A stretch of 64,000 nt of DNA from Hericium rajendrae (Eukaryota > Basidiomycota > Agaricomycetes > Russulales > Hericiaceae). Of this stretch, positions 4,413 through 38,105 are shown in pieces. The notes under the pieces are model-generated. The model did not search any database, was not told where the DNA came from, and worked only from the letters and a program-made list of their open reading frames with translations. Location of the stretch: positions 1-64,000 of the forward strand of contig JAVRDV010000017.1 in assembly GCA_033439255.1 (NCBI GenBank), in the 5' to 3' direction. A program made the translations under genes and the position numbers. Position 1 is the first letter of the stretch. Each line of letters begins with the position of its first letter.

Positions 4413-4668
4413 GTAGATAGGTTATTAACTATACTGACAATACTCGGAGCATGGGTTACAAACCACCCGGTAACCTATATAGGGTAAATGTGCTATGATA
4501 CCGGCCCGGAAAGCGTTCGAGCACGCTGTTCAATATGTTTTTCTTGGAGAAACATATCCCTTTAGGGTAATTTCTCCGATATCGTGCCTGGCGGGCGTTC
4601 TGGCTCGTTGGGGGGGTTCGGGCATGCCTCGGGGACACTCCCTGGTATGTTTCTCCGTGAAAAACGGG

Positions 4669-6226: not shown

Positions 6227-6699
6227 TCCGTGGGTAAGTCGACTTAGGCGTTTTCGAGATTTTCGTAAGTCATTCACCTTGTCCACAGCAAGGTCTTTTA
6301 GACATATCCAGGTGGAAGTTATGACTTGAATTTGCAAAGTAATTACTTTAACATGGATCTACGCTGGAATCAACCACGGATGTGGAGATAACGAGTAATG
6401 AAAGTGTAACGAGTAATGAAAGCCTACGACAGCAAAGCCAACGCTGCGAAATCAGAACTGAACAAATGCGAAAAGACGAGACAAGTGCAATGCAAACGTG
6501 ATCAGAAAGCGTGTATGAGCGACGCGAACAAAAACCGCTGCCGCCACCTGCCAGCAGGATAAAGCGGGCGACGTGAAACTGGGATAGCTGGCGCAGTTGT
6601 CCACAGCCATACGCATGCAATAACCGGTGGGCTTGGCCCAGCACATGCGAGCGGAGCCATATGAATGCGTGCATGGGCATGCGTGCACTCGGGGCGAGG

Positions 6700-7150
6700 T
6701 GAGTGACGAAGGATGGCAGCTGTCGAGGCGGTGGACAAAATGGCGCGGGGACTGGAGGCCGTCAAGGCCGTGGGCGAGATGGCGCGGGGGCTGTCGAGGC
6801 CGTGGGCAACGTGGCGCGGGGAATGCAGACGCGAGCGATCGCGCACTTGCGGTAGGGGAGCATTGAAGGCACGTGGGGGGGTAGCGTGTCTCGGCGGGCG
6901 GTCCAGCACACGCGTCTCGTGCAGGCGGTTGAGCACACGCTGAAGGAGGGCCGTCGTGTGCGAGGTGGTTGAGGGCACGTGGGCGGCGTAGCGTGTCTCG
7001 GCGGACGGTCGAGCACACGCATCTCGCGCAGGCCGTTGAGCACACGCCGTAGGAAGGCCGACAAATGCGTGCGCGAGGTGGTTGAGGGTATGCGGGCGAC
7101 GTAGCGTGCGTCGCGCACAGGGTCGCGCACACGCCGTAGGACGGCGGACG
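6700..7150. repeat. GC-rich degenerate tandem repeats
   Basis: At 6715-6830 a unit of about 35 bp containing GAGGCCGTGGGCGAGATGGCGCGG is repeated about three times. At 6870-7140 a unit of about 113 bp containing AGCGTGTCTCGGCGG and GAGCACACGC is repeated about twice. Long minus-strand open frames across it are arginine/alanine/proline-rich shadows. Between 6230 and 6700 nothing was recognised. At 7200-7430 there is a plausible intron on the plus strand (GTAAGTACAAG to TTTGCAG) but no assignable gene. Confidence 0.65.
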
Positions 7151-7533
7151 CTGCGGCCACGCGGGTGTTGGTGAAGTTGAGGACGGCGAGTGGCCGTGGG
7201 AGGTTGCCGCGCGTGTCTATCAAAGCAGCTGGTAAGTACAAGTGTTCACCGCGATATCGATGTACTGACTTACTTATGAGTCCGTCCCCTGCCCTTTGCA
7301 GCATTGACCACCGGCGTCGTCAACGCTGGCGGTAAGAGGCAGCCTGTGACTCGTGAGGTCTGGCCGAAGTCTCAGGACATCGGCGTTCGCCGGTTCTGTG
7401 GCTGAAAACAGCTCCGATTCAAATTCTCGGCCAATACCGGCCTCATGCAATGCAATTAAACATAAGTCGAAGTCGAGGAGATCACAGGTGTGGTAACTAG
7501 TCTACGGAACGGCACGACGGACAGAATACGGAA

Positions 7534-10500
7534 TCAAGAAAGGGAAATGCTGCATATGGTGGGCGAAGCAAGCATAAACGATGGGGCAAAGGTGGCTTCA
7601 AGAAAAAATACCTCATTTTCTGGGCTGAGAGTCAGTACGTACATGGATAGACCAGCTGGGTGCACGTACCTCTTCTGCCTCTTTGCTGGCCTGGCTTCAG
7701 CTTCAGGCTGCGAGGCCAATCCAGATCGACGGCGCCCAGAAGCGATAGGGCCAAGCAAAAGGACTTCGAGCACGGAGGTGACATCCGCCACAGCATCCTC
7801 CCAAGACTTCTCATCTTCGACCTCTTCAGACTCCCTGATTGCCATGCCCCAGAACGCCAAGGCAGCCACGACGCTCAGAAGGCCATTCTGCCCAGTAACA
7901 TCAACCTTCTCCCAAGAAAGGTCCCGCGTAGGTGGTTTCAGCGCCGTCGAGTCTTTTCAAGGCGAGCGGGGGTTGAAGCGCACGCCACCAGACCCAGAAT
8001 GCCTGCGCCATGGTGTCTGTGTCGCCGATGTCGTATGTGCGCCATGCCCTGGCCCACTGGATCCACTCAGCTACCACGGCAGGGCGACCCTTGGCATCGA
8101 GCCGTGGTCTGCCGTCCCCAGGCTGTTTTGCTCTAGACATCAGCATGGAGCTCAAAGAAGAAAGGCACCAAGGCTCACCGAAAATCCACGATTCTCCTCA
8201 TGCTTGAAAAATGCCACTAGCAGCAAGCGCCAGCCGTCGCCAAAGTCCAGCCCCAGCAGAAACTTCAGGGAGCTGGAGAAGAGCACCGGCCATGAAGACG
8301 TGTCGAGGCCATTGAGGTCTACGCGCGAAATATCGTCGCGAAGGGCTTGCAAGGCAGGCAAGGACGCGGACGGTGCCTTCGAGGCAGTCAAGCCGTGCGT
8401 TTCGGACGCCGGCGTGGGAGGGCGCCCAGGAGGCGGAGACGGGGTGGGGGAGGGCAGAGGCGGGGTGGGGCGTGGCGAAGTCGAACGCGCCTGACGCGGA
8501 CGGGCGGTCGCCGTGTCCGTCGCAGGCGTCTCCATCACAGCACCGTTTGCTGGCCTGATCGTCGTCGGCGCGCCCTTTGCGGATGAGGCCGGGGTGGTGT
8601 CCTTCGCGGGCGAGGCCATGGCTGACGCGTCCTTCGCGGGCGAGGCCATGGCTGACGCGTCCTTCGTAGGCGGGACAGTGGCCGACGGGGCCGTGGCGGG
8701 CGGGCGCGGGCGGGGCTGTGGCGGGCGGGGCCGTGGCGGGCGTATCCTTTGCGCGCGTGTCCTCGGCGGGCGGGGCCGTGGCGGGCGCGTCCTTCGCGCG
8801 CGCGTCCTCGGCGGGCGGGGCCGTGGCGGGCGTGTCCTTCGCGGGCGAGGCCATGGCTGACGCGTCCTTCGTGGGCGGGACCGTGGCGGACGGGGCCTCT
8901 GCGTACGAGGCCGTGGCGGATGGGGCCGTCATAGGCGTTTCCACCAACGCAGATGCAGTAGACCTCGTGCTACCACGAGAGCGGGCAGAGTTGCGGGGAC
9001 TAAATGCAGCCAAAGACAGCGGGACTGTCGGCGGCACTGCAAAGCGACTAAACATAGAGCCAGCAAGTGGAGGAGATGTGTTACCTGGCGAAGGAGGGGG
9101 GGATGGGGAAACAGGCGCAAAGGGACCCACCCCCCCCTCTTGAACTGGAGGGGACTGGGGGCGCGGGGACCTTGTAGTTGGCGTTGACAACGTTGATGGA
9201 CGAGGCACTGGTGTGAGAAGCGCTTCCGCGCCTTCTTGACTTGATTTGTCAGGCGCCTGCGTGGCGTTTGGCGCGCTTGCTGCAATCCGGCGCATTGCAA
9301 ATTCAAAACAACGAAGTAAGTAGACATCCTGGCCATAGAGAAGACCTAGCACTCACGCAAAGCTGCACGCGAGAACTTTCTAAACGACGAAGCAGCCGTG
9401 TTGTAGCCCACCTTGTCAAAGTGCGGCCATATCTCGTCGACCAAACCGCGCTTGTATCCTGCATGGACACTCCAAGGCAAGTCAACTCCTTGCAAAGTGG
9501 AAGGCGAAGGTGAGTCACCCATACCTCATAACGTCGATCTCGCCTTCATTTTCTTCATAACCACCCCCCATCATAATAGTCACCACCGTCCCGAGCCGCT
9601 CCGCGATTAGTTCTGCGATCGGCTGCAAGAACTCGTACGACGATCTCAAGGCCCTATAGGTACGTCAGCGCGCGGTTTCCGAGAAGGTGGGCAGCACCAC
9701 TCACAAGCGTTGGTCCTCGGGCACCACAGGAGCGTCGACACGCCGGTTGTAATCATCCATCGCCGCTGCGTGTCGTTCCTCCGCGATCCTTCTGATGGAG
9801 GCCTTGAACTCTGGGTCCTCGGCTTCCCATTTCTGTCGCGCGAATTCCGCTCTGAAGTTAATGTCTCGGTTCGACTTCTCTGGATCGGCGGTGTCAGCAT
9901 TCAGGCCGAGCTCTGCAGCCCTCACCTTCCACCCTTCCTTCAGCTTCTCTTGCCAGAACAAAGACATATATGTCTGCCAATCGGTTTTCTTCTTCGGCGG
10001 CTTCACAAGTTGGCGAATGAGCACGGAGAACGAATCGGCACGGACACCGACAGAAGGCGCGGGAGAATTGGAGGGGTTGAATGTCGATGTCGACGTGGAC
10101 GCCAGCATCGACGACACCGCGGAAGCCGCAGACGCGGCGGGCGCGGTGGTTGTCAACTTCCTCTCCTCGTGCTGGTAAAAGCGCTTGATTTTCTATCGAC
10201 AGGTGAGCATTGCATCTCAAGCTGTCAAGAAATATACTCACATCCCGTACGTCTTTATATATCCCCTCCTTCCTCGCTCTCTCCTCCATCGACTCGCCTT
10301 CGTGATCGCTAGGATTGTCGAGGTCAGAGTCGGGCGGGTCGGCGAGGTCCTCGGGGAGGATATCGTTCAGCACGGCGTCATAGCCGTACTTTCGTATCAT
10401 GAGCCGAGTGATGCGCGTGTAGAAGGCGTTCGCCCCGTCTTTGTCCTTCGCCACCTTACGATATTCGGAGCGGCGCGCTGAGAGAAATTGAAGACGAGGT

Positions 10501-10598
10501 CCTTGTGCCCATGCTGGGCGCCCAGGCGGTCTCTTCACACGTTTGGGAGGTTTGTTCATCTGGTAGAGTGTGCTGTCGTGAGAGACGTGTGATCCCAA
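7534..10598 (-). pseudogene. Decayed Agaricomycete-expanded protein of unknown function (WWRALQP / GQNGLLSVVA family)
   Basis: A multi-exon minus-strand gene. The first exon (from 10598) encodes a basic N-terminus with GRPAWAQG and a KYGYDA segment. The next encodes KIKRFYQHEERKL and a charged domain (KTDWQTYMSLFWQEKLKEGW). A long Ala/Pro/Ser repeat-rich linker follows at 8.4-9.3 kb, and then the conserved C-terminal motifs AVVAEWIQWAR, FWVWWRALQP and DVTGQNGLLSVVAALAFWG. A clean intron lies at 8123-8178. From memory this order of motifs marks a large Agaricomycete family of unknown function. Between WWRALQP and GQNGLLS the frame changes and a TGA (7957-7959) interrupts it, and the linker also changes frame, so the copy is probably dead. 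Confidence 0.6.
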
Positions 10599-10785
10599 TG
10601 GTCCGAAGGGTCTGTTGACGGGTTAAAACCCCCTGGGTGGTCCTCATATGCTTATGCCCCACAAGTTTGGTGCAGGCAGGCCTTGGTCTCTGGCTCGCTT
10701 ATGTCTGGATCCAATGTTTCATACTGAATAAATATCGGCTACATTTTTAGAGAGGTACAACCAGGGGTTGCTAAGCCTATACATT

Positions 10786-12076
10786 CTAAGCTACTGGTAG
10801 CTGGTGTGAGAAGCCATCTTCTCCGGTTGGAGATCCCCATGCAACCCAGAGCCGACGATTATATTCAGAGATGGCTGCGAAATAGTCAGGAAATCCAATG
10901 ATACGGCCACCATCTTTCTCGCCAGCCGTTTCCTCATTTGCATCATCCCTGTCCGGTATTGAGTGAGCAGCTACCGATACTGAAAGTTGGCAGGAATTCA
11001 TACCAAAACAAATAAACTCCAGGCTTTGAGCCATTAAAGACAACCCAGCAGTATTCCGGGCGTCGATCTCTGAGCGCGGTTGTAAAGTAATGTGGCGGCC
11101 TGTATTTGCATAAGTCGCCAGAAACGGAGCGCCCGTGAGGCCAATTTGAAACACGTACGGAAGGCCCTGGGCGCGAAGTGCCTCTGATTGAAAGCGTTGC
11201 CGAGTCCCGTCAGGGTGGTAGATCCACACCGCCCGTGCATCCATTGCCTTCTTCCATAGCTCGACTGCGGCAGGACGGCCGGCAACCGATTTGTACACGG
11301 TTCGACGCGGGTTGTCTGAAGTGTTAAGGGCATCGTCCAGGGCGTCGTGCCTCAAAGGAGTTCAGTACAGCAACCCGCTGAAAGCCGTCAAAACCTCACT
11401 TGTTAGAATATATTCCAGGTATTGGTCCAACCAGAACAACCCAGTATGTCCGATGAGCGCGCTCTGTGGAAACAATGAGCGCGGAGCAGGCAAAACGGGA
11501 AAGAGGCTCACCATCAGGATCATAGTCGTCGCCAAGTGGGAAAAACCCATCCCCAGATGCGCCGTCGGCTGTGCGTATGACATCGACGTCAGGATCAGGG
11601 CCTACATTTCGCATCGGGCCACCCTCTCTGCCTAGCGCTGGCGAGTGGCTCCGCTCCCCACTTTCGTCGACACCGGCGCGGTCGTCGTGCTCACGCCGTG
11701 GAACGCGAACGTGGCTGGTATCCGTGCTCGGGCCATGGGGGCAACGGGCCTGGTTTGTGGAGACATGTCTGAATGAGGTTAGGTGACGGGTGCCGGCCGG
11801 CTGCACTGAGGCGTCCTCAAAGCGAACTCTGCGGGATCGAAATGGAAACGAATCGGCTGTTTGGATAGCAGCACCCTCTTGGAGTGGAACGCCGTCGTTA
11901 CCATGGACACCGGTGCACCTGCACTGCTGCGCCTGGACAGGGCGTTCCACACCTGCGTCTCCTGCGTGACGCTCAGCCGTGCCTTGTCTACTCCAGCTGT
12001 AGGTCACGGTCAGGCTATCAGCGGTTTTGACGAGCGCGGCTATGTCGCCAGAGATGGTGAAAGAAAGGGACGACAT
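10786..12076 (-). CDS. Hypothetical protein with RNase H1 N-terminal-like domain
   Basis: The start at 12076 opens MSSLSFTISGDIAAL. A poorly conserved, charged region follows. After a small intron (minus-strand donor GTGAGCC, acceptor TTCCACAG, near 11.5 kb) comes YWVVLVGPIPGIYSNK. A second intron of about 49 nt leads to DALDDALNTSDNPRRTVYKS and AAVELWKKAMDARAV. The pattern (YWVV..G..PGIY, then a helix and a basic RRTVYKS strand) resembles the small RNA/DNA-hybrid binding domain at the N-terminus of fungal RNase H1. No RNase H catalytic domain follows. The C-terminal part (10786-11220) is of unknown nature. Function is not established. Confidence 0.45.
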
Positions 12077-13600
12077 TCGGGGAGAAAGCGAACTATGGGG
12101 AAAGGAGCAGCGTACCGAACCAGCCCCTTCAAATTGACAGCAGTTCCAACGGCGTCTGCTCGCTTAGCCTTCCGATCGCGGCGCAGACAGCGCCTCGTGC
12201 GCACTATGCCCTACCTGTGGTTATGTCCAAGCGAATGCATGACAGATGGCTGAAGGCGAGATACGCGCACCTTCGAGAAGCCCTTCAACGTAACGTAGTT
12301 ATTTCTCGATCCCCGTAGATAGCTCCAGCGAAATGAGATGGGATGGTTGCGTGCATCATAGGACACAGTTATGCAAACGGAGGACACTTGCTGCGTCAGA
12401 AACATCAGCCATGATACAGGCAGCGCATAACTGCTTCGCAGACTCACTATGCTTAGGAGGTCGACTTGCATCAAATTCACTGACGTTATTTGAGATGAAA
12501 CCAGGATAAAAAGAAAGAGTTAGCCGGATCGAAGTGGATGAGTGCACGTTGAAAGCGTACCGGCCGTTCATCGCATCTACCCCATCCACGCAGATCAGGC
12601 GGTATGCTGCCGCACGTACGATATTCCCCAGTTTGAGTTTGACATTTAGTCAACAGCTCTGGGCTAGATGGCGTATTATGATAGCGAAAGGGAGTCGGAA
12701 AACAGTGAATCGAGACGGAAGCTGCAGAATGTCCAGGCATAATATTGTAACGCTGCAAGTTTTGGAATCGGGACATCCGCGACGTCGCGTCCCGCTTCCA
12801 GACAAAGCTTGATTCCACCTTGTGAAGATGCAGATGTCTTTTTAGTCTTAAGCAGGCTGAAGACGATATTTATTATCAGTCGATCTTCGCGTATGAGGCT
12901 AAACGTCCCCTTGAAAGTATCACAGATGTAAGCCAAACGACTGCTCAAGTTCGGCAATTAGAGCGATGCATTACGACGCCGTTTTCTGGAGGCCAACGGG
13001 CTCACGCGTTTCACGAAGCGTATGTTAAATTACATCGACCACGAAGGGCGCAATCACGCGTTTGGAACTTGGAAGCACGGCCAAGCGTGTGCTATGCGAA
13101 TCAACGTGAATTTGTGCTGTGTGACTGAGATTAATCACGACGCGACAGCTCCACTGATGCGCGCGCCGCGCTCCTTCCTTCGCTGCAACCGTCTGATACT
13201 TAGACGAGACTACGCGCTTTCCTCTCTCCCCATCCCTCGCCCCTCATTCTCCCCTTACGCCATCGTCTCGACCGTCCTCTATCTGCCCGGCACAATGCCC
13301 TTGAGGTGTGTGATTTTTTCTGCGACATATCCCTCCCCTTTTCTGCCTTTTTCCCTTCGCGTTCACCCGTTGGAACCCCCCCTCGCCGTCCGTATGGAGT
13401 CGACCCCGGCACCGACGCGACGCACGAGGGACATGGAGAGGCCCGGGCTCATTTTCATTTTTCGCCGTGATATTGCACGTCGCCAGGCCTGCCTGTCCGT
13501 AAGGAGTCGACCCCGGCACTGACGCGACACGGCGCTGGCGACGCGTCTTTTTCGCGTTTTTCAACCCCATTTCTCCCTTAGCTACGTGCTGCGCCATAGG
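12077..13600. other. Spacer upstream of the TET/JBP gene, with a small internal duplication
   Basis: Between the minus-strand gene and the plus-strand dioxygenase no protein could be assigned; open frames on both strands are short and unlike known families. At 13386-13433 and 13490-13530 the words GGAGTCGACCCCGGCAC and GACGCGAC occur twice about 105 bp apart, a local duplication. The region probably contains the promoters of the two divergent genes and perhaps 5' untranslated exons of the dioxygenase gene (a potential acceptor TTGCCTTGCAG lies at about 13661-13671). Confidence 0.4.
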
Positions 13601-13657
13601 ATATGTTTCAATTGTCCATATACCTCTTTCTGACGCGCTATTCCTTTCCCCTTTGCC

Positions 13658-15631
13658 TTGCAGCACCTGAGCGCAACATGTCGAGGGTGGTGGGTTCTAT
13701 TCTGTCCCTCGCCGCCCTTCCAGCTATTGATTCAAGCACAGACCCGGTCCAAGCGCGTCTTCTCTCCATACGATGCCTTGCTCCAAGCCCCTGCCACGTT
13801 CGACTTCGACGCAATCATCGCCGACGCGCTCACGGATCAACGGGGGACTGGGGATGATGGGGCCCGCCCTGCTGCCGACCAAACTGCAAAAGCAAAAGCC
13901 GCGCCCATCCAGCCCGCCGTTCCCGGGCCCTCCTGTTCCCCAGGCGGCCACACCGCTCCCCATACAATGCACGCCAGCCCCGCTTCATCACATGAAGAGG
14001 AGCGGGACACACCGCCCCTCCTCATTGTGGTCCCACGAACCCCGCCGCGTCGCCGCCTTCCCTTTCCCGCGTTCGACGGGCCACTCACACCTGTCGGCGG
14101 CAGTCCGGCTGGCGTGTTCTCCAAGCCCCTGCAGGTGCCGCTCCAATTCCCTGCACGCGCCGGGGCGTTCGCGGGGGCCTCTACCACACATCCCCCATCA
14201 AATCCACCCTCCCCACTGCGCAAGGTATTTCCCAAGTCATGCGCAGCTGCTCGAAAAGCACCGCTTCCCTCGAAGGCCGGCGGGTCCTCTAGCGGCGAGT
14301 CAACGGACCAAGGATCGGGAAGGCAATGCCACCAGCGCCAGAAGCGAAAGGCCAAGCGAGACGCGGCGGCGAAAGGGGCTGCGAAGGGCTATGCCCTGCG
14401 CCGTTCCGTGCTGAAAAAGCATGCGATGCCCTACGCCGTCGACATTGGCGGCGATGCCGAGGACCTGCCGCATTGCGAAGGGGCTTGGCTTGGCAACTCG
14501 CACACGAAGTTAGGGGAGGTAGACATGTCCTTGCAGAGCCTGAAGGCGCGCGGGTTCCGGTATTTTGCCTGGGATGGAAGGTGGGTATGCTGATGCCCTC
14601 TCATATGTCCTCGCCTGACGCTTTGGCCATAGGCGAAGGGTCTTGATTATCGACAGGCGGGCTCGAATTGTGGCCTCCCTTGCTGGGAGGCCTAACGACC
14701 CGAGGTGGGATCAGGCATGTGGGCGAGTTGTGCATGCGATGGACATTGCCAATGGGGAGATGGTGCTGCACGGAGAAACTTCAGCAGAGAAAAACCGCCG
14801 GGGCCGCTACGGCTTCGTGAGTACCGGGGTATCTTTCGGCCGTGGCCAGACGGTGCGTTCTCCCCTTGATAAGCTCGAAACACGTTCGCTCATGCTTTTC
14901 TCAGCGCCCAAAGAACTTGCGAGAGGATTCAAAGCGAAACCAAGGTGCTTTGCAGCGCCTGCTTGCCAACCCGGACCTGCACCGCATGTCAAAATTTATG
15001 TCTGGTACGCCCTTCATCGTCGTCGCATCGCCCTTTGCCCTTCTGACTGGGCTTAGCCACGTTTGGGCTGGGTGCACCCAAGCTGTACAACCACTACTAC
15101 GAGACCCTTGAGGCCATCATCAAGCGGCAGCCCGAGCTTCAAGTGCCCTTCGGGAGCCCCGTCTATGCAGCGTGCTCATTCAATTTTGGGCCACATGTTT
15201 CATGTGCAATGCACTTGGACTCGTCAAACCTTCCGTACGGCTGGTGCTCAATTTTAGCCTTGGGAAACTTCAACCCGGACCGCAGTGCCATGCTTGTGCT
15301 CGCGAAGCTCGGCCTCGTCATTCGCTATCCCCCCGGTTCCGTCGTGCACATTCCCTCAGGGAGCGTGCCACACGGCAACACCCCACTCCACCCTGAAGAC
15401 TCGCGGAGCTCGTTCACGCAGTACAGCGCTGGGGCCTTGTTCCGCTATGTTGACTACGGGTTTCGTCACGAGCATGAGGTCATAGAGCAGGATCCTGCTG
15501 AGTGGGAGAGAATTTTGAGGGAGCGACCTGGGCGCTGGTCTCATTGCATGGGGTTTTTTTCACATCGTGACGAGCTGGAAAAAGACATAGAAAATGTATT
15601 TACAGATGTCGGCGCTTCACCTACGAAATAA
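13658..15631 (+). CDS. TET/JBP-type 2-oxoglutarate/Fe(II) dioxygenase (5-methylcytosine oxidase family)
   Basis: Four exons (13658-14580, 14633-14852, 14905-15004, 15057-15631), separated by three introns of 52 nt each, join in frame to 605 codons. The N-terminal 200 residues are Pro/Ser-rich and probably disordered, ending in a basic run. Then come the conserved parts of the Agaricomycete TET/JBP family: LIIDRRARIVASLAGRP, FVSTGVSFGRGQ, and the double-stranded beta-helix core. Iron ligands are HLD (His at 15212, Asp at 15218) and the His of VPHGN (15371). The 2-oxoglutarate-binding Arg is in ALFRYVDYG (15443). LGNFNPDR and VIRYPPGSVVHIPSG match the family core. Relatives oxidise 5-methylcytosine in DNA, in the nucleus. 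It lies 238 bp upstream of a KDZ transposase gene on the same strand. The exact start codon is uncertain; the catalytic part looks whole. Confidence 0.88.
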
Positions 15632-15868
15632 ACATGCGCCTTGCGGCAGGCGTCTGCGACCGCGCGAGTCACGTTACTTTCACGACGCGTCTTTGTTGAT
15701 CATTGCGTCTTTGCGGAACGCGTCTTTGTTGAGGGCCTACAGAGTGTGTGGGCCGTGAGACCACCTCTCTTGTTCCTGTGCCGCTCGAGCCGCTTCGTCC
15801 CGCGGGCCTCCTCCCCTCGTCGCCTCCTCTACGTCCCGTCCATTTCCACCCTCACTTTCAGTCTTGAC

Positions 15869-18800
15869 ATGTCAAGCTCGCGTTCGAAATCCAATTCAAA
15901 GAAACGAGTCGCTCCCAAGGGTTTTTTTGAGCAAACCGAAAAGGCTCAGGCGCGCTCTATCGTCCTCACGGCTTCGAAGGACGGCAGGCGCATAGTCGCT
16001 GAGAAGACACTTGTGAAGCCGACACCAGCTCCCCTCATACCGGCCGCCTCCGCTCTTGACGACGCGGCTGCACCTACGACGCCAGATTACGAGGGTATTC
16101 AGCACGACGCCTTCGACGATATTGAAGATGTGGATCAAGCCTACGATAATCCTGTGGTCGACGCTGATGAAGATGGCATCATACAAGTTTCCGCGGATGA
16201 TGTCCCGGCACGTCGTTATGAAAATTCCGTAAGTGTTTATAAACCTTGTGTACTGAGATCCATTCTGATGTTTTCTGCAGGATTTCCCTCTGAAGGCGTG
16301 GAGGCCCTTTATGGATGAATATTTGGACGAGCTGTTGCGGTTGGAGGGTCGAGGGCAGGATTCCGGGTCCACCATGTGCGCTCGCTGCCAATCCGACGCA
16401 TCGACGCCATGCATACGTTGTCACAGTTGCTTTGGGGGGCGGTTAATTTGTGAGCAGTGCGCAGCGGATTGCCACAGATACCATCCGCTGCACGATATCA
16501 AGGTCCGTATCTTGCAGCTTTTTTTTTTCCACGTCACTGACGCCGGATGTCAGAAATGGGAGGGCGGGTTTTTTACACGCGTATCCCTCGCATCACTCGG
16601 CATGCGCATTCAATTAGGACACCCAGTGGGCGAGGTCTGCGGCCTTCGGCAGCCTGTTGAAAAGACGTTCACGGTGATACACACCAACGGCATCCATCGC
16701 GTGAACGTCGACTTCTGCGGGTGCTCCGCCAATGCAGGGGTCCACCCCCGGAAACAGTTGCTTCGCCGCCGCTGGTGGCCGGCAACCTTGCTCGAGCCTC
16801 AGACGTGCGCGACGTTTGAGGTTCTGGAGCTTTTCCACCTGCTGTCTCTTCAGGGAAAGACGAACGCGTACGACTTCTATAAAACCTTGGAGCTTGTAAC
16901 GGATAATGTGAACCCGTCAAATCTTCCGGTTTGTCTTATTATCCTCGGTCTGGCCCATGTGCTGATATTGGATCAGAATCGCCTTGCAAGTTTCACGCTG
17001 ATGGCCCGCCAGTGGCGCGTCATGAAGGCTTTCAAGCACGGGGGCCGAGGCCACGAGCACAGCGGGGTTGGCGGGACGGCCAAGGACGAGCTTGCCCTGA
17101 TGTGCCCGGCCTGTCCGCATCCCGGCATCAATCTGCCAAGCGACTGGGAGAGCGACCCTGATGCCAGGTGCGCATACTGCTCCCTTGAATGCATTCGCGC
17201 TGACCGCATCTCAGATGGCTTTATCGCCGTTGCTTGGCCATCGATGCCAACTTCCGCTTGAAGAACCGGCTGCGATCTTCAAATGAGCGGGACCCCGGTT
17301 TGCTCACAGGATATGCATACTTCGTTCCGGACGAGAGCTACGAGGAGCACATCATGGAACATGTGGATGAGGCCGAGGTGCGTTCCCGTTTGCCGTGTGC
17401 CGGCGTTGGGCGGCCTTGCTTAAGGGCCTTGGTTTAGATCAGCACCTGCGCAGGGTTTGCCGCGATTGCAAATGCCAACAACAAGAAGACGAAGGGGCTT
17501 CGGACGACGGGGGTGGGCGGCGTTTTTGACTCGCGACATGGGTTTTGGATGGCAAACGGGCTGGGTGACTTGCAGCGGGGCGAAAGGTGGGTCTCAGTTG
17601 CTCTTGCTATTCGAGCTTAGCTCACCACAGGCCTAGATACTGCAACATGGACTTCGTGTTCTTTAGCATCGTGGCGCTGATCCTAAACGTTGCGTTCCTC
17701 ATCTCCTACGACATCGCTTGCCAGTGGTCAAGGAAGTTTTTTGAACGCATGGCCGCCCTCCCTCCTTTCCTTCAAAAGTCTATTCCTAAAGAAAGCATCG
17801 ACTTCGCCGTGCCAAAATTCCACTTGCCCGCCCATGAAGACAAATGCCAGGCGCCGTATAGTCTTCATTACAAATACGGTGCAGGGCAGACGGACGGTGA
17901 GGCCCCAGAGCGCAACTGGGCGAACACGAACGGCGCAGCTGCAAGTACAAAAGAGATGGGGCCTGGAGGAAGGCACGACACCTTAGATGACCACTGTGGG
18001 CATGCAAATTGGTGGCGAACGGTTCAGCTTGGTGGGTCCAAGCTCTTCTCGATCAGTCGGTTTTGCGCTGACACATCGATGCGCTTTGGCTAGGGCCGCA
18101 GCTTCAACGGCGCCTGAAGGTCGCCATAGCGGAGGCCGGTGAACAGCAGGAGATATTCGAAGGCTACACCGCCGCGCTTGAGGAAATGCATGGTGACCAA
18201 ATTGCACAATGGAGGGAATCTGTCGAACAATGGGAGTTAAACCGCGCGGGTACCAACCCTTATGTGTGCTCGCAGGACAGTGAGTTTCCCAGCCCCTCTG
18301 AATGCTCATATATTGATCTGCAATAAAGAGGCATTGCTCGCGGAGATCAAGGAGCGTATCGATCGACATATGAATGGGGCAGGAAGCAGCCGTGCTAGCG
18401 AGGAATCGCAGCCAGGTGCGGGCGCTTTCTTGACGTTGGGACTGAAGATTGAAGGCATGCAGTAAGCGGCTGTTTGCCTACACCTAGTCTAATGGCTAAC
18501 CGCTTTGAAGGGCAAACCTCCGCAAGCCTGCAGGTGATGCAGACGAAACGCGGCGCCAAGAGGCCCGCAACACCCTCCTCAAGCTGATCCGACGCTTTCG
18601 ATCTGAGCAAGAGATCCACATGCCGCGCGTGTCCCGTCTTATGGAGCCCGACGAGGACGGCCGAGCAAACTCAACACGCCTTCCTGAGGACATCAAGCTG
18701 TATCTACCCTCTGGACTTTCGATCGCCACGCGACCCGAGCATTGTGAACCAGCTCTATCACAGCTGGAGGCCGATTTGCGGTACGCTAGCGCACTGGAGG

Positions 18801-19611
18801 CCCTCGACGAGCTTCGCAGGCAGCTCCGAGTTCGCACCTGGATGACTAGGTTCAAGATAAACAACATCACCGGCCAGGGACCGAACACCAGAGCGCGTTC
18901 CCTTCAAGCTGCGATTGACCGCCGTGTCAATAAGGCGGCAGCAAGCTATACTCGCGCTCGTGAAGCCTACCGTCGGCTTGTCGGACCAGGTGATTGGGAG
19001 GAGAAGCTCCGCGAGTTGAAGGATGAAGACAAGCGGGGCCTTGGCGAGCGAGTTTTGAAGAACCGGGAGGCTATGGAGGAGAACCATGTCAGGGAGATTG
19101 CGGGGATGCCGGAGGTTGTTGTGCCAGGAGAAAGGACTGGCGAAAGCAGGCATAAGCTTTCGTGGATCTGGCATTCGATGTCGGAAGGCAGCATTGGGGA
19201 TGAGGTGCTGAACGAAGGTGAGCCGGGATCCCTGGGTGCCTACATGCCATGCTAATTATGCATGTAGATTTTCGTATTGAGTGGCTTAAGGCCAGGGCAC
19301 GAGCAGTTCGCTGGCGAGAGGAGGTCCAGCTGTTGTCCTCGGAGATATCGTGCGCCATACGGTTCTTCATTTGGAAAGCAGGCTGGTGGGTTCAAAAAGC
19401 AAATCGGTGCAAGAATATGCCATCCGACAACTCAATTTCCACAAGGCGTCCTGATGCAGAGCTGTGGGAAGGGCTGGTGTCATATGCCATCCGCCACGCT
19501 ACGATGTATGATGGCCTCGCATCGTCGATTCGAAGCCTCACCAGCGAGGTTCAAGAGCAAGCACTGAAGTTTTTGGGGAGGTCTAACACCGCCAGCCCCC
19601 GCATAGCTTAG
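15869..19611 (+). CDS. KDZ transposase, apparently complete (copy 1)
   Basis: Eleven exons (15869-16228, 16281-16502, 16554-16928, 16977-17167, 17215-17377, 17438-17586, 17637-18031, 18094-18279, 18329-18461, 18511-19217, 19268-19611) join in frame to 1074 codons with no interruption. Order: basic N-terminus (SRSKSNSKKRVAPKGF); CxC2-type cysteine cluster (CARCQ, CIRCHSC, CEQCAADCHRYHPLHDI); HTNGIHRVNVDFCGC; LLRRRWWPATLLEPQTC; a zinc-like CPACPHPGINLP; then the RNase H-like core with AIDANFRLK (Asp at 17243), SYDIACQW (Asp at 17710), FHLPAHEDKC and TDGEAPERNW (17893). The C-terminal third is helical and charged. This is the standard layout of KDZ transposases. No inverted ends were identified. 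Introns are 47-62 nt. Intact coding sequence suggests recent activity. Confidence 0.92.
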
Positions 19612-19739
19612 TTTTCACATGTATCTGGATCCTGCATGGATTTTTTGGACATGGCATGGTGTGGAAAGGCACGGTGTGATGGCAAGCTGGAGGCTCAACA
19701 AGGTACGCCTTCGACTTTGGCTTTGGCTCGGCCCTCCTC

Positions 19740-20235
19740 CCCTCTCCACTCCCATGAGCCGTCATGCAGCTGATACATCCCCTACGTACCCCGCCCCGCC
19801 TCCCCCGCCGCCCTCACTTCTAGCGCTGCCCGTGCTGCTTGCCCATACCTCGCCGCTTGCCCGTTCCCACCCGCACCCCTGCTACCCATCTATGCCCGTG
19901 GCTGCCTCTCTGCACCGCCCACCCACAATTCCTGCCCATGCTGCCTATGCTATCGCCGTCGCTGCTGCTCGAGCTGCCCCGTTCCTGAGCCGCCTGCATG
20001 CACCCGAGCTGCCCGTTGCTGCTCATGGCGCCCCTGCTGTGCTGCCTGTATCACCCACACAGCTCATGTTACACCACCCACGCAGCCCGCAACACACCGT
20101 CCATGCCGCCTGCACTGCGCTGTACCTGCAGCCTGCGATACACCGCCCATGCTACCCATGCTGCACCGCCCCTGCAGCCCGTGCATCCAGCACCTCCTGC
20201 ACTGTGCTCACTGCCCATGCTGCCTGCCCCTAATG
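19740..20235. repeat. GC-rich CTGCCC/CACCGCCC low-complexity block
   Basis: Downstream of the KDZ stop codon, about 500 bases are dominated by variants of CTGCCCATGCTGC and GCACCGCCCAC, giving Pro/His/Ala-rich open frames in several frames. No protein is supported. A T-rich tract follows at about 20311-20335, and 20340-20445 holds nothing recognisable. Confidence 0.55.
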
Positions 20236-20445
20236 CTTCTCCTATCCCTATCCCTGTATTTACATGTACAATACACAATTTTGCAGCCCAAAAAGCGGCC
20301 CAGGCAGTAGGTTTTTTATTTTTATTTTTTTCCGAATTTATTAAGGAGGGTTTTAAACCCATTTAATGGCCTTTTAAGTTGCCGGCTGGTTTGTAACCCG
20401 TCCTCCGGGTATTGTCGGTAGAGTTAAAAAACAACGTACATGGAC

Positions 20446-20551
20446 GCCTCGTCGGTGAACTTCATCGACTTGGCACGGGCAGCACAAAGCTTGCCGGAAA
20501 CAACGACTTCGCAACCCTTGGCACCGGACTCCATAACGAAGCGGAGCACAC
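20446..20551 (-). pseudogene. RPS3 (uS3) exon fragment, copy A
   Basis: The minus strand encodes [20 protein letters not shown] followed by [13 protein letters not shown], almost identical to the KH-domain-adjacent part of eukaryotic ribosomal protein uS3. Only about 35 residues are present. It ends where the 30-bp minisatellite begins (20555). It is a captured piece of a host ribosomal gene, not a functional gene. Confidence 0.85.
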
Positions 20552-20554
20552 AGC

Positions 20555-20640
20555 AGGGACAACCCCACCTGCCGTGGGTAAGGCAGGGACAACCCCACCT
20601 GCCGTGGGTAAGGCAGGGACAACCAACTTGCCGTGGGTAA
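20555..20640. repeat. 30-bp minisatellite, second locus
   Basis: Three tandem copies of GGGACAACCCCACCTGCCGTGGGTAAGGCA-type units, the same family as the array at 4040-4275. It is sandwiched between two RPS3 exon fragments. Confidence 0.85.
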
Positions 20641-20654
20641 TCAGCCGCTGCCGG

Positions 20655-20851
20655 TGATTGATATATCCTGTGAGATACAATGGAATCTAATGAGACAAGT
20701 GCGACATGATGGAAACATACCGGCTGACCGGAGTGGATCATGAAGCCGTCGGTGAACTTCACCGACTTGGCACGGGCAGCACAAAGCTTGCCGGAAACAA
20801 CGACTTCGCAACCCTTGGCACCGGACTCCATAACGAAGCGGAGCACACCGT
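20655..20851 (-). pseudogene. RPS3 (uS3) exon fragment with intron, copy B
   Basis: The minus strand repeats the uS3 peptide of copy A ([17 protein letters not shown]) and continues further: [19 protein letters not shown], then an intron starting GTATGTTTCC and ending CTCACAG, as at 4316-4370. The presence of both exon and intron shows capture of genomic DNA. The 90 bases after it (20852-20944) are unassigned. Confidence 0.85.
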
Positions 20852-20944
20852 AGCATGCACTGCAAGAGGCTCAGATGCTGAACACAACACCCAAATCGAT
20901 TGAAGCATGCACCGACGGATGGCGAGGCCACTAATGAGCTTGTA

Positions 20945-21235
20945 TAACATATACCCCCACACGCCGGTTCTCTTATAATACCACGGTTCATTCATCATTG
21001 ACCGGCCCATCCTCTTATGTCCAATGGATCATTGGCTGGCCCATTCGATCCCACGGGTTTTCAGTTGCTCGGCTGGTCCCCTACCGTCCATTGGGTCATT
21101 AATGGGACCATCCTCTTAACAATTTCTACTGGTCATTGGGTCATTGGCCGGCCGGTCCTCTTACAATACCACTGTATATTCATCATTCACCGGTCCATCC
21201 TCTGACATCCATTGGGTCATCACCATGCCGCGGGA
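20945..21235. repeat. Short copy of the CATTGACCGGCCC satellite
   Basis: Units such as CATCATTGACCGGCCCATCC and GGTCATTGGCCGGCCGGTCC match the 2.4-3.9 kb array, in the same orientation. Together with the RPS3 pieces and minisatellite just before it, this repeats the composition of the 2.4-4.4 kb block but in a different order. 21236-21416 is AT-rich and unassigned. Confidence 0.85.
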
Positions 21236-21470
21236 TCAATTGCAGCGTGATGCCGTGGGATCAATCACAGTGGGGGGTTTCACTGCAGACAAAATTAGTC
21301 ATTCAAAATATAAACCAGCCGTATGGTATATAACATATACCCGCACATGTGTGCATTGCATAAAACACTAACTTTAACAATCACAACTGGTATCACGCAG
21401 GTGCCTGAATTGTCATGTGGTAGGGTTTCGCGGCGAGGTCTACACTTCATCTCCATCCATCACTTTCCAT

Positions 21471-22268
21471 ATGTCAACGAGTCCCTCACCAGACCCCCTT
21501 GAAGAGTTCCGCACCCGCGATATGCAGGAACGAAAACGTCGGGTGGAAAAGTCTCTTGCTGCACTACAGGCATCGGAAGTCGGTGACACTAACCTGAATG
21601 TGAAGCAATGGGTACAGCAATCCATCTTCGCAAAGCCATGTCAATGTGCTAATCACACTATCACCATCGTTTTAGGTAGTACTTGCCAGAGATTTTGGCT
21701 TGGTTCAACTGATAGCATCCAATGTTCCGATGAAGTCCAACAATCTATTTATCATCGCTTCATAGAAGATATGGATCGTTCATGGCATCCTCTCATTCCT
21801 GAATCCACCTCAACCATGACTGCTCGTGCAGCTCGTGCACACACATCCCACGGCATTGTTAGCCCAGGACTCACCCACGGCATGCCACCATTGACCGATA
21901 CACTCCCACGGTATAACGCCGCCCTCTTCTCGAGAGTGAGTTGAAATGTTTCTTGCCAGATCATACACACTAAATTCTCAAATCTACCAAATATCTAGAA
22001 TGGTTACTATACTGTACCTGGCTCTGCACCTCCTGCAGATCTTTTCGAGGAAACAAACAAAAGTTTTTTGGAGGCTTTGAACGAGTCAGAAACAGCCCAA
22101 CAGGAAGCGCGCGGTATGCTGCAGAGGGCGTTGGCTGCCGAGGATACCAAGGTGAAGCAGTGGAATAGCGAAATAGGGGTGGCGATGAAGGGTAATCATA
22201 GTACACGTGGTGCCAATGCAGAGGACGTCACCGATGGCAATGATACAGATGAACGTACAAATTCATAG
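21471..22268 (+). CDS. Hypothetical protein, two exons
   Basis: The start MSTSPSPDPLEEF is chosen as the first Met after which codon use looks protein-like. Exon 1 (21471-21935) and exon 2 (21999-22268) join in frame across an intron with donor GTGAGTTG and acceptor ATATCTAG, giving 244 codons. Features: an acidic/basic N-terminal helix (RTRDMQERKRRVEKSLAAL), a middle segment with IYHRFIEDMDRSWHPLIPES, and a C-terminal coiled-coil-like helix (FLEALNESETAQQEARGML). No domain was recognised. It lies downstream of copy 2 of the KDZ gene and converges with it. Confidence 0.5.
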
Positions 22269-22423
22269 ACCTTTTGTTCTTTAGCCTAAAGCGTTATCCA
22301 AATCTGGCAGTAGTATTCCACAGTCCGATGATCTGATCAATGCCCCTTTCGGTATTTTGTCCACACTTCCGCACCCTCTGTCATCTTGTTCTATTTGACC
22401 AAGTTCGCTGGAAAACAAGCCAA

Positions 22424-23397
22424 ATGCAGAGCCATCCTAGCAACGACGGTTCAGACCAGGATATCAATCCATTGACGGACCAAACCCGCGGCTCAGGTGT
22501 GTGCAGAATTGTCGAGATCCTGGCATTGCTAATCAGTAGTGTAGACAGTAGCTGGCCGACCCTAGACGAATATGGATATGATGAGGAGGAGTGGGATGGA
22601 CCCCCTCCCCTAAATCCAGAAGACACGGACTTTCCCCAAGCACCTCCGCATTGCCTCGCACAACAGCTCCTCAACGAGTCTGCTTGGCGCATTCGTGATG
22701 CCATCCTATGGCTGAAAGACAAGGTGGATTACCCAGATTATGATATTATGAAGGATCAGATCTATGCCGGCATAAAGGCAGAATTGGCAAGTGGTGATTG
22801 ATCTGATTGGATTCTGATTGATGCTGAACCCGACTAGGATGCTGCGGGTTTCATCATCGGGTGGGCAGCCTTCCACTGCGAACCCCTCCTAGTCCACGAC
22901 TATTTAAGGAATGCGTACAACACATTCCACATATGCACCAAGGCATACGAGGCCCATAAGACCCCTGTTTCTGTGTCTCATATACCCTTTCAAAGGGGTA
23001 AGACTACCCTGACCAGAATTTACATGCCATTGTGGTGGATGGAACGTGGGGGGGAGTGGCTTTCAAAGAAGCAAGTGAATACCCAGGCAACAGCACTGGA
23101 TAAGGCTTTCTGAAAGGGAGGGGTTTCGATACCGCCAAACGTTCTGGACCATCTCATCGTCGCCATCCAGCTGGCTGTGACAGAGGTGAGCCACGACCAA
23201 TGCTGCTGGACTCTACTTACTTCTGTATTCATACAGATTTGACGCAATGACCCCATGGTGCAGAACATCGACAGTGCAATTACCCTGACCAAGAACATGA
23301 TAACCGGTCTGAAATCAAGGCAGGGTGAAGACGATCAGATGGCAATGGAGATGGGGGCCCTGCTCAAATGGGCCAACATAAGCAAAGCGTATCATGG
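22424..23397 (+). pseudogene. Hypothetical gene, probably decayed, with a GC-AG intron
   Basis: The start MQSHPSNDGSDQDINPL opens a 121-codon exon containing DEYGYDEEEWDGPPPLNPED and an alpha-helical tail (WRIRDAILWLKDKVDYPDYD). An intron at 22787-22837 with a GC donor (TTG|GCAAGT) and acceptor CGACTAG restores an in-frame exon DAAGFIIGWAAFHCEPLLVH. Further downstream, stretches such as GVSIPPNVLDHLIVAIQLA and SAITLTKNMITGLKSRQGED look like later exons, but a TGA near 23111 and another break interrupt them. Function unknown. Confidence 0.4.
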
Positions 23398-23449
23398 TAT
23401 CGAAAACATGGCGGGCAGCTCTGGGGATATATGTGACAAGTGAATATGA

Positions 23450-23545
23450 TAGGCAGTGGGATACAGTGCCACGGGGCATGGGATACAGTGCCGCGGGACA
23501 TGGGATACAGTGCCGCGGGACGTGGTACCATGCAGTAGGATATGC
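23450..23545. repeat. 24-bp minisatellite
   Basis: Three to four copies of GGGATACAGTGCCGCGGGACAT, some degenerate. It separates the convergent hypothetical genes and the C-terminal end of KDZ copy 2. The CCGCGG-rich words GCCGCGGGA and CCGCGGC are also scattered through 23.4-29.5 kb. Confidence 0.75.
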
Positions 23546-23653
23546 TGCTGTGAGATTTAATGCCGCGGAATCGCATCAAGGACATAAGTACTGCCTTAGT
23601 GACAAATGTATGCATTGATTTGGACCCAACTCGAACTCAATAACCTGAATATA

Positions 23654-26600
23654 TTACATGCCAAACTGCGATGGAGGATCGTCGCCTCTAGCAAGAGCAA
23701 ATGCAGCTTCTGCGGTGGTTGCGAATTCTGCCCACATTGCACTCTGATGGGCTGCATATGCCAAGTGACCCAGTTTCCCCTTCCTGTCAGCCCATATCTT
23801 CCTAGCATTCCAGGCTGCTCCACGTGTCCTGAACCCGCGGACAGTCCACTCCATTTCAAATGGAAGCACTACCATTTGCTCCTCCCAGCGATGCAACCGA
23901 GCACGGGCGCGGAGCCATTGGACACAATGGACTGTAAGACAAGGATGAACAATTGGACATGCAAGAATGATTTTGGCTCACAATCTGCCAGCCATGTAGC
24001 CTCAGCGGAGTCCCCTTTCACATCTACACTCCAGAACCATGGCAGATTTGCATTCCGCAGCCCCCTTGCCGCGGGATCCAATACCGCGGTATGGACCTTG
24101 AGCTGTGCCCTCTCCAGCAGCTGAAGTCGTTTCAGGACCAATGACTTGACTTTCAATGTAACTAATGCCTCTCTTGCCTTCCGATATATGCGGGCCTGCT
24201 GTTGTACTGTGTTTTCGATGGACATGACATCTGCCCAGGCTCGGGTTTTGCCGCGTTGACTGCCAGCATTGCGGACGTCATGTCTGAAAACAAACACCTT
24301 ATGTCCCAATGCTAGACGAAGGCTCTGCAAAGCATCATTTGCTTGGCCCTCCCTCAACTCGGCCTCCTTGGCAACAAGCGAGCGCATCTCCGGCAACGCG
24401 CGCAACTCGTCGTCCAGGCAGGATGGGATTGACAGGGCGACCCTCTCCACTGGGACATACACATTTGTGCCGTCTGCTGCAGCATTCCCTGGAGCATGTT
24501 GCTGTTCCGGCTGCTCGATATCCTCGCCATCTTCACCTACAAGGTCGAAGTCTTCCCCTTCATTTTCAGACAATGGGATGCCACCACCTGTGACATCTGT
24601 ATCCTGTGGGAGATAGTCGCCTGCCGCCCTCTCAAATGTCGAAACCCTGGCCTGGAGACGACGTCTGCGGTCTGCTAGATCATTTTTCTGCTCCGCGGTA
24701 AGGTTTTTTCCCAACTTGCACAGATGTGCTAGGATAGATAGCCTGCCAGTTCCATTAAAAGAATGAAATGCTGAATGAATAAGGCATTCTTTGGCAAGAC
24801 TTACTGAGTTTCCTGAATGCGAAGTCCTAGAGTAATCCATGCCGTGGCACCTTGCCCCTTTTCCTTCTTTCGCTCTCGCTCATTCAATTTGGATAGGATC
24901 TCTGCTCTTGAAGGGGCTGTGTATCCCGCGGAAATCAACCCCTTGCCGCGGGAACACGTCGTACCAAGTTATGCGCACCTGTTTTGATTACTGTGTCATA
25001 TATCGGGACCATGACTTCAGGCTTATCGCTGCGCTTATCCTGCGCACGCTGCTCTGCTTTGAGCCACGTGTCCCTATTCTCAGCCCCGACTGTTGCGTCG
25101 ATATTTTCGAACCCAAGACGTGCCTCCGCAATGCCTGCCTTGCCCTCTTTATACTTGCAGGTAAGGTACGATACTGTGCACCATGATCAGGATCAATGAT
25201 TATTGCTCGGGAGTGAATGAACCCACCCATCCCTGTCATCTTTTTCCAATTTGAGTCATTCATATGGTCGTCCAGGACCTCTCGGCGATGAGAAGTCGTC
25301 ATACCAGACGTACTGCGAGAAATCTCGTTCAGTGGTGCCCAGAGTGTTTCGACGACTTCCCCATCAAACTGTCTGGCTCCAATGATGTAGTTTGGTGAGA
25401 ACGACGGGATGCAAGTATCCTTGTGTCCGTGGACATGGAACAGCCCAATCGCCTTCTTCATTTCCTTCAAACTCATTGGAAGGTTGAGATATGGACTTCT
25501 CTCTACTCGCTCATTGAAATGCTTCCACCATTGACAAATGACGTCATAGTATTTCAAGATGATTTCTATCCCTTCAGTATTGTGGTTGATGGCCTGCACA
25601 TGGAGTAGTCCATGTTCATTTGTCTGGTTGAGGGGGGTGCATGAGCCATGCTGCGGGATAGCGATATGGAACCTGCGGGACGCACCTTTCGCCTTTTTGA
25701 AAGTCAACAACAGAATGGGGATAGTAAGCACCATGGCCACAGGCGGTAGCACCGATTCCGGTGTTTTCAATGTTGTGACGATCCGAGTTGACACAGTTTA
25801 CAGCGCGGTGCTCATTGCAGGTGGAGCGCTAAAACATGGTCAAGCAACCTTGACCCACGGCAATGCTGAACCACCCTACCTTGGTGACCTCCAAAGCAAC
25901 TTTAAGATGTTCCTGATACTCTTTCCTTCCCACCATGAATCCGGTGCCATCACTGAGCTGGACATCATTCTCTGGCTTTCGCATCTTCACCCCAGTCAAG
26001 TCAAAATTGCCATCCATGACAAATGTTCTTAAGAAAATCCACCTGACGAGGTATGAATCTGAGAGGAATATTCTTGAGGTGACATGCAGCTTACTTCCGT
26101 GGATCTAATTCCTTCCAATTGTCCGGCAAGTTGAACCCTGGCTGAGGGCATGCTGCACAAAACAGCGCAAATGCACCCGCGGCATCTGGCTTGTCCAAGT
26201 CCGTATGGCCAGCCCCAAACCATTTTCTCAACTTCATATCACGCCATTCTCTCTCTACTCTGAGAAGCTCTCTGTACCGATTCTGGAGGAATATCTGATC
26301 AAAGAAATTTCCCTCTGATTACAAGAAAGTATGTATCTCACCGGTACACTGGCCGGAAATGCACTGCTCGTGAGCCGACGCAGTTTCGCATAGAAATGCC
26401 AGGCTGTGGTCTTGCATTCTAAATTATCCAGTCGGAAGTCATCCAAAACATGAAACGTGAATGCAGATTGTGGTGCATTGAAGGAGGCTGGGAAGAAGCC
26501 CATCCGAAACAGCTGCTTTGCTGGTGCCTCTGCATCTGGACACTGACACCATACGACTGGCAGCTGATGGACTCCGTTCGAATCGATCAAGCAGAGAATG

Positions 26601-27390
26601 GGATTGCCTTCATTATCCATGTCCTGCTTGCAGACTGAATCTGTCTGGAAGTGCAGTGTGTTGTCTTCGTTACTCTGGTTCGTCTGATCATCCTCCGCAT
26701 CATCGTCCTCATCCTCAACCCGGACTCCATCTCCCTTCCAGCTTCCCACGGCATGTGGACATGCTTCTCCACCGTGACCAAGGTGGACCCGAACACCAGC
26801 TAGACGCAGCCATGAAGGTGCAAAAAATTCGCCAGTCCACTTTTCAACGCGATGGAGTGGAAGTGCCAGATGGCGCCGTGCGTAGCATGCTGTGCATTCA
26901 AAGGGTCGGCCCACACAATCTCCACATTTCCACAGACCTGGGCGTTCCTTGCATGAGATGCACTTGCCATCCGCAGGCCGACATTCATGCTCCAACAGGA
27001 TATGGAGATAATCCTGACGCTCATCAAGCCATTCCCGTAGGAAGTCATGCTGGCCCTATTGTAAAGCCAGTCATGCCGCCGCACTACGTGACTCGATGCC
27101 AATTCAATACTTACCTTCCTTAATGTATTTGCAAGGGGTACACGATTGGGATCCACATCCGGTATGGTGTCCTCTTTCGGGCCCTCTCCAGATTGCTGAC
27201 TGGATGCGCCACACAGTGGTGTGCTCCTGGCCCGGCGGGCCGGGTTGCTGGGATTCACATTACGGATTGGAATCGCAACTTGGCGATATCCGCGGGACGT
27301 CTCCTTGAGCACTAGTGCCACTCGAGCCGGTTGACTTGGATTGCCAAATTCCTTGCGACGAACCCTGGTAGTACTCTTTCTGGTTACCAT
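23654..27390 (-). pseudogene. KDZ transposase, damaged (copy 2)
   Basis: A multi-exon gene from ATG at 27390 (MVTRKSTTRVRRKEF; exon 1 27115-27390) to the stop at 23654. Order: basic N-terminus; GQHDFLREWLDERQDYLHIL; CxC2 cluster (CRPADGKCISC, WKCGDCVGRPFECTACYARR) in exon 26342-27055; SNGVHQLPVVWCQC; FALFCAACPQPGFNLP; catalytic core with TFVMDGNFDL (Asp 26012-26014), YYDVICQWW (25543-25545), GLFHVHGHKDTC and ARQFDGEVVETLW; and a long C-terminal helical part ending in LRARARLHRWEEQM. The motif style differs from copy 1, so it belongs to another KDZ subgroup. One base appears missing near 25.6 kb, between NMDYSMC and AINHNTEG. Otherwise the exons join well. A TET/JBP gene lies only about 90 bp upstream, same strand. 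Confidence 0.82.
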
Positions 27391-27482
27391 GAGATTGGGT
27401 GAAGATGACTGTAGAATACAAGAACACGGCAAACCTGCTCGACGAGAACATGTGTAAATTTGATCGATGGTATTCGTAACTC

Positions 27483-37912: not shown

Positions 37913-38105
37913 AGCTGTTTATCTACATTGTTCGCTTTGTTGCCCCTTTTTGACTCTTTCAACAAAGCTGTTTGACGCGTTCATTGTCATTAGTGCCAAA
38001 ACGCGTTCCTGACTGCTTTGTCCGAGTTGTCACTGCTCATAGCCCAAGTGATGCCTGCATTCATGCTTCCCTCCTACTGGTCACTCCTTCCATACCTACT
38101 TCACC

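Follow-up and report, generated by a model that had tools for sequence, protein, structure and literature searches.

Near the start of contig C17 of the mushroom Hericium rajendrae (JAVRDV010000017.1 of assembly GCA_033439255.1) a gene for a TET/JBP-like dioxygenase and a gene for a KDZ transposase follow each other on the same strand, and this raises the question whether both form one mobile unit and what the dioxygenase does for it. The window analyzed here comprises the first 64 kb (64,000 nucleotides) of this contig of 488 kb. A sequence-only reading had taken the two genes (13658–19611) as a mobile unit with its own DNA demethylation enzyme and as a candidate for an active, self-derepressing transposon. 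This extent was incomplete, as the pair sits within one transposon of 16,049 bp, which has defined ends and also carries a minus-strand third gene. With moderate confidence we suggest a KDZ transposon with transposase, TET/JBP-like dioxygenase, and third gene, whose dioxygenase would oxidize methylcytosine and would thus aid expression and movement of the transposase. The transposon and its borders are the following:

4402–20450, plus strand: whole transposon, 16,049 bp (identical ends in three copies, unlike flanks, length of the empty site, last base C)
4395–4401, no strand: left target-site duplication GTCGGTG (matches empty sites on contigs C1 and C18)
20451–20457, no strand: right target-site duplication GTCGGTG, partner of the left one
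4402–4477, plus strand: left terminal inverted repeat, starting CACCAG (pairs with the right end)
20375–20450, minus strand: right terminal inverted repeat, ending ...GACGCCTC (pairs with the left end; similar ends elsewhere)
4534–6223, no strand: repeat-rich stretch of the left end, whose length differs among the copies (many overlapping BLAST pieces)

The sequence-only reading had proposed to look for further copies and to align their flanks, and this indeed defined the ends and the target duplications. By searching the genome (46.8 Mb, 19 contigs) at the DNA level with window 12000–20700 we found two additional copies on contig C8 with 99% identity over 8.45 kb (C8:2450522–2465947, plus strand, and C8:2476213–2491176, minus strand), which face each other at a distance of ∼10 kb. 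The left end (window 4402) and the right end (window 20450) are common to all three copies, whereas flanks of 1.5 to 2.9 kb in length outside these ends are dissimilar among the three sites in six of six comparisons. Each insertion has its own target duplication, namely GTCGGTG twice in the window (7/7), ACGAGCC/GCGAGCC (6/7) and CGAGGCC twice (7/7) on C8. An 8-bp duplication, considered as a C precedes all three, was rejected on two grounds, namely how two relatives end and in which register the inverted repeats pair. Similar right ends (76%) at C4:3010404 and C7:3077215 also finish with GACGCCTC before unlike sequence, and the terminal base C is therefore common to five ends. The inverted repeats are imperfect; 57 of 76 bp match ungapped if 4402 is paired with 20450 and 25 of 76 when the pairing is shifted by one base. 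As the ends of the relatives finish in this way and the inverted repeats align only with 4402–20450, we arrive at a duplication of 7 bp and a length of 16,049 bp.

The site as it was before the insertion can still be found on two other contigs. When both flanks of the window copy are put together with a single duplication between them, 400 of 400 bases align ungapped and with 99% identity to C1 and C18, and the counterpart stretch on C1 is shorter by exactly 16,056 bp (16,049 + 7). The stretches C1:4188–4587, 8357–12458, and 20859–25360 are collinear with the window on the same strand, the offset being 14 before the insertion and 16,070 to 16,143 after it; on C18 the matched stretches have the same order with ∼5 kb extra between the first two. 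Most simply, the flanking block spread first and the element inserted afterwards, although this order could be obscured if chromosome ends have exchanged sequence. It could be argued that a segmental or subtelomeric duplication spread the pair with both genes as passengers, since the window lies at the end of a contig, matching stretches are present on C1 and C18, and several dioxygenases without a transposase lie near contig ends. The exact common ends in three places, the distinct target duplications with inverted repeats, the unlike flanks, and the empty site refute this explanation, which we regard as extremely improbable. Thus, the proposal of one mobile unit is strongly supported by three insertions with target duplications and clean empty sites, and also by the co-divergence of both proteins (see below). 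As for the claim that the transposon is active, the insertion is recent, because the corresponding sites of C1 and C18 are without the element, and the unit may still be transcribed and mobile.

The insertion target is a repeat array near a second TET–KDZ element (window 24500–28600), so that one TET-carrying transposon has inserted into the surroundings of another. This second pair lies on the minus strand and is of the AG type (HRDSQG.....D), and its family has nine genomic copies of ∼3.8 kb or more with 98–100% identity, the one of the window counted. The reverse nesting is seen on C14, where C14:1151067–1151630 and C14:1182505–1182907 (minus strand) are apparently one dioxygenase of the type studied here, split by ∼31 kb that hold a copy of the 24500–28600 family and repeats. 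Between both C8 copies of the 16-kb transposon there is a different pair of dioxygenase and KDZ transposase (C8:2469548–2472469, plus strand), the dioxygenase again being of the type studied here (focal type in the following).

The two genes of the pair are as follows:

13678–15631, plus strand: TET/JBP-like dioxygenase gene, 580 codons, 5 exons (motif, relatives, weak PF12851 match, fold)
13678–13686, 13742–14580, 14633–14852, 14905–15004, 15057–15631, plus strand: exons of the dioxygenase gene (predicted splice model)
15212–15229, plus strand: HxDxxN motif of the dioxygenase (aligned relatives)
15869–19611, plus strand: KDZ transposase gene with CxC2 domain, 11 exons, 1074 codons (profile matches, open frame in the window copy)

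The transposase gene agrees with what had been read from the sequence, as the predicted splice model runs from the ATG at 15869 to a stop ending at 19611 through 10 introns, all GT–AG, and gives exactly 1074 codons in frame. Its product matches the KDZ profile PF18758 over the full length (1–217 of 217; E 1.1e-63; 215.3 bits, cut-off 26.6) and the CxC2 profile PF18803 (E 2.1e-43). Both genes are on the plus strand with a gap of 237 bp (238 bp had been given). The dioxygenase model needed correction. The proposed 605 codons from 13658 begin with TTG and not with ATG; the gene is real, and a better model has 580 codons. A CAG acceptor makes 13742 the more likely beginning of the second exon, and a tiny first exon (13678–13686) would supply the ATG; the degenerate pattern for this junction (CAG joined to TRS) matched 4 and missed 10 of 14 sequences, with the window among them. 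A start at 13295 (608 codons) was replaced by the ATG at 13678, which leaves the catalytic part unchanged, and the intron positions of the catalytic part recur in relatives of ∼50% identity (tblastn breaks near query residues 52, 125, and 157–160).

Over the 14,201 columns that lie beyond window 6240, there are 108 and 107 differences between the window copy and the two C8 copies, and 55 between the C8 copies themselves; with the left end included the pairwise identities over aligned columns are 97.8, 98.7, and 99.6%. The transposase frame is intact in the window copy only, as the C8 copies have two and one single-base deletions, whereas the dioxygenase can be read through in each of the three (608-codon model from 13295 with the same catalytic part). 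We give no weight to this difference (3/3 versus 1/3 open frames) and rejected a stronger retention of the dioxygenase, because chance alone would place the three deletions in the transposase with a probability of ∼0.26, given that the coding lengths are 1827 (dioxygenase) and 3225 bases (transposase).

What kind of enzyme is encoded? The HxD...H...R residues, noticed already from the sequence alone, are present and conserved among relatives: the iron triad HxD..H and the arginine are invariant in 18 aligned members, and among 38 aligned members both histidines are invariant and the aspartate and the arginine are conserved to at least 90%. The asparagine of HxDxxN and a cysteine at +9 are invariant in these 38 members as well. 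They occupy positions 331 and 337 of CcTET, the TET enzyme of Coprinopsis cinerea, where AG-type enzymes have Gly or Ser and Asp; in this genome, four members of the PF12851 type do have G or S, and D, at these positions. The hallmark of the PE type, HxE, is likewise absent, the motif being HxD. The match to the Pfam profile Tet_JBP (PF12851) has 16.8 bits (E 0.004) and is below the curated cut-off of 34.9, and 23 of the 38 relatives give a match to this profile with E no higher than 1, the lowest value being 1.1e-4; such scores do not exclude membership in the superfamily. When the predicted fold was examined for a double-stranded beta-helix nearest to that of TETs, CcTET ranked first in Foldseek and NgTET and CcTET ranked first in VIA, with low template-modelling scores, other 2-oxoglutarate oxygenases close, and a mean predicted local distance difference test (pLDDT) value of 68.7; an earlier AlphaFold model from an 18-row alignment (pLDDT 59.3) was not used. 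The identity to CcTET in Foldseek is 19–22% over 101–118 alignment columns, and a sequence search against solved structures gave no match (single sequence, E up to 1; profile, E up to 10). No relatives of the dioxygenase were confirmed in viral contigs. We read the gene as encoding a divergent TET/JBP-like dioxygenase.

As for the term DNA demethylation enzyme, activity on 5-methylcytosine (5mC) is inferred, because the pocket residues differ from those of the tested fungal enzyme. The dioxygenase might serve the transposon otherwise, modifying N6-methyladenine (6mA), thymine, RNA, or protein, or shielding the DNA during transposition. We consider this unlikely, as the top fold and profile matches are TETs. 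Furthermore, human TET2 has Asn at the corresponding place, so that the Asn of HxDxxN is compatible with 5mC. More tentatively, the residues may point to a fourth, hitherto unclassified type of transposon-borne TET/JBP enzyme (HxDxxN, Cys for Asp337), compared here with the AG and PE types out of the AG, PE, and PU types of Kojima. This type would have been kept for long with the KDZ transposase and the third gene and overlooked below the Pfam cut-off, and could have another substrate or oxidation stop than the AG-type enzymes on sister transposons. If this is true, the count of TET-like genes in the genome more than doubles (57 loci in addition to 46 by PF12851). The divergent type also cautions that PF12851-based numbers of fungal TET genes can be too low.

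The association of dioxygenase and transposase extends across the genome. Among the 57 focal-type loci a KDZ transposase is found within 6 kb at 25, and in 24 of these the dioxygenase is 5′ of the transposase on the same strand, with a gap between the two domains of 889–1382 bp in 22 of the 24 pairs. The PF12851 loci behave similarly, as 36 of 46 have a KDZ transposase within 6 kb, always downstream on the same strand (36/36). Of 137 KDZ loci listed, 36 have a PF12851-type dioxygenase upstream, 26 the focal type, and 75 neither; this list is approximate, comprising all CxC2 matches and 28 hand-picked KDZ matches, with 150 of 223 candidates scored. The protein distances of dioxygenase and transposase correlate with r = 0.97 (9 of the 24 pairs; permutation p 5e-5). 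This co-divergence and the fixed arrangement argue that both proteins have travelled together for a long time. The sequence-only reading had named genes that always move independently as one possible refutation; the focal family does not behave in this way, despite 32 of 57 loci without a listed KDZ transposase within 6 kb.

Several of these 32 solo loci are near contig ends and some are mutually near-identical. Five near-identical solo copies are at C11:77064, C11:2255451, C19:177515, C10:2290973, and C9:21532; at least three of them are less than 25 kb from a contig end, and none has a listed KDZ transposase within 6 kb. Among possible vehicles of the solo dioxygenases, a Plavaka match is present within 9 kb at 1 of 32; Helitron matches were compared by eye only. 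Six further weak Tet_JBP matches below the cut-off (C2:33965, C2:3866436, C4:348987, C4:1122998, C9:549710, C14:67218) are each ∼7.0–7.7 kb from a Plavaka transposase match and are apparently TET-carrying Plavaka elements. Window 37000–41500 (plus strand) belongs to a family of KDZ transposases that has no dioxygenase of either type found upstream and that gives 13 matches of 3.4 kb or more; its first 0.9 kb has relatives on C2, C3, and C7 without the transposase part listed.

Does the dioxygenase protect the transposon from methylation? In the three copies 79 of 88 polarized C-to-T and G-to-A changes are at CpG, compared with 2290 of 8056 unchanged C/G sites, and without polarization 109 of 135 variable columns are of the CpG type. 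Since such an excess of CpG-to-TpG changes is the footprint of deamination of methylated CpG, the copies are probably methylated. A TET-carrying family of the PF12851 type has 37 of 42 changes at CpG (5 of 9 copies). The share of non-CpG changes is somewhat higher in the TET-carrying families (Fisher p 0.04 for the focal one, 0.24 for the PF12851-type one, 0.07 pooled; unpolarized), in a comparison with a single TET-less family of four copies unmatched in age and composition, and this hints faintly at sparing. The ratio of observed to expected CpG is ∼1.0 in the gene part and left arm of the element and 0.99 in the TET-less family. We rejected a protection from methylation in cis, as families with and without TET are not clearly distinguished by the fraction of changes that fall at CpG.

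Some of these results speak against our suggestion. A TET-less KDZ family decays alike (36 of 38 changes at CpG; 4 of 13 copies matching at least 3.4 kb), and the solo loci outnumber the dioxygenases near a KDZ transposase. The label self-derepressing stands as a hypothesis; all three copies bear the CpG-to-TpG footprint and so does the TET-less family. Judging from this decay in each of the copies, methylation by the host appears to reach them, and the enzyme would at best provide windows of expression and not lasting escape. Alternatively, the dioxygenase might be carried along as a passenger, neutral or beneficial to the host, that does not influence the transposon; the similar decay and the solo loci (32 versus 25, several near contig ends) could be quoted for this view. 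However, order, strand, and spacing relative to the KDZ transposase are fixed over deep divergence, both proteins co-diverge, and the catalytic residues are invariant, so we regard a passenger as quite improbable.

We return to a transposon that would be served by its dioxygenase, and self-derepression is plausible and, as we infer, the likeliest purpose. The transposase would act at the inverted repeats and mobilize the unit, and the dioxygenase would oxidize methylcytosine of the element's own DNA and probably also of DNA at other places. This oxidation might keep the transposase gene expressed until movement, ahead of renewed methylation of the copy by the host. In this genome three sorts of KDZ families coexist, carrying an AG-type TET, the divergent type, or neither. 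Together with a fully bounded TET-carrying transposon and its empty site, they allow a direct test by methylation mapping of whether TETs carried by transposons relieve silencing of the element on which they reside.

The transposon has a further gene:

9704–10559, minus strand: third gene, two exon-like pieces, uncharacterized protein, divergent from the dioxygenase (genomic relatives)

A Pfam search with each of the two pieces gave no match at E values up to 1. Relatives are found at 15 merged loci (25 matches) of the genome, and 10 of the 15, or 7 of 12 outside the three copies, are divergent from a focal-type dioxygenase within 9 kb; by chance (random placement within 15 kb, any orientation) ∼4% would be expected. 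The loci C3:3272017 and C7:2273207 are divergent, within 7 kb, from a KDZ transposase without a focal-type dioxygenase so arranged, C6:3015208 is 11 kb from such a KDZ locus, and C6:3019353 and C9:1228959 fit neither arrangement. Given this recurrent placement, we assign the third gene to the transposon.

A TET-carrying KDZ transposon is a known kind of element, and enzyme subtype, third gene, and a clean record of the jump add novelty. Iyer et al. (2014) reportedly gave an earlier account of such elements. That the association in mushrooms is established, as the sequence-only reading held, is borne out by the text on TET-carrying KDZ transposons of Agaricomycetes by Kojima (2025, PMC12730594), which also states that the function of transposon-borne TETs is without experimental validation. 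According to the text of PMC8889193, expression was detectable for only four of the 46 TET genes of Laccaria. A literature search, which covered part of the text of PMC12730594, gave no description of this dioxygenase subtype, of a 7-bp duplication together with inverted repeats, or of the third gene.

As described in that text, TET-carrying Kyakuja elements also combine a KDZ transposase and a TET/JBP gene in one unit, with 7-bp duplications and a 5′-CA start. However, two Laccaria Kyakuja families have CA..TG ends and no inverted repeats, whereas our element has CA..TC ends and imperfect inverted repeats of 76 bp, and the Kyakuja dioxygenase is of the AG type, of which ours lacks both residues. 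TET-carrying Zisupton elements likewise belong to the KDZ group and have inverted repeats and a TET/JBP gene, but their duplications are 8 bp long and their TET genes are of the AG or PE type, whereas ours has 7 bp and neither type (PMC12730594). Both comparisons are based on the described ends, duplications, and TET types. The PE-type dioxygenases, recognized by structure comparison, resemble ours in being far from classical TETs and located on transposons, in their case of several kinds, and differ by HxE in place of HxD (PMC12730594). CcTET, the best Foldseek match among solved structures, has Gly331 and Asp337 where our dioxygenase has Asn and Cys (PMC12730594). Finally, counter-silencing encoded by a transposon is described in the text of PMC10398659 for VANC of the Arabidopsis VANDAL transposons, to which our dioxygenase may be likened; the VANC proteins are sequence-specific anti-silencing proteins, whereas the element described here encodes a predicted dioxygenase.
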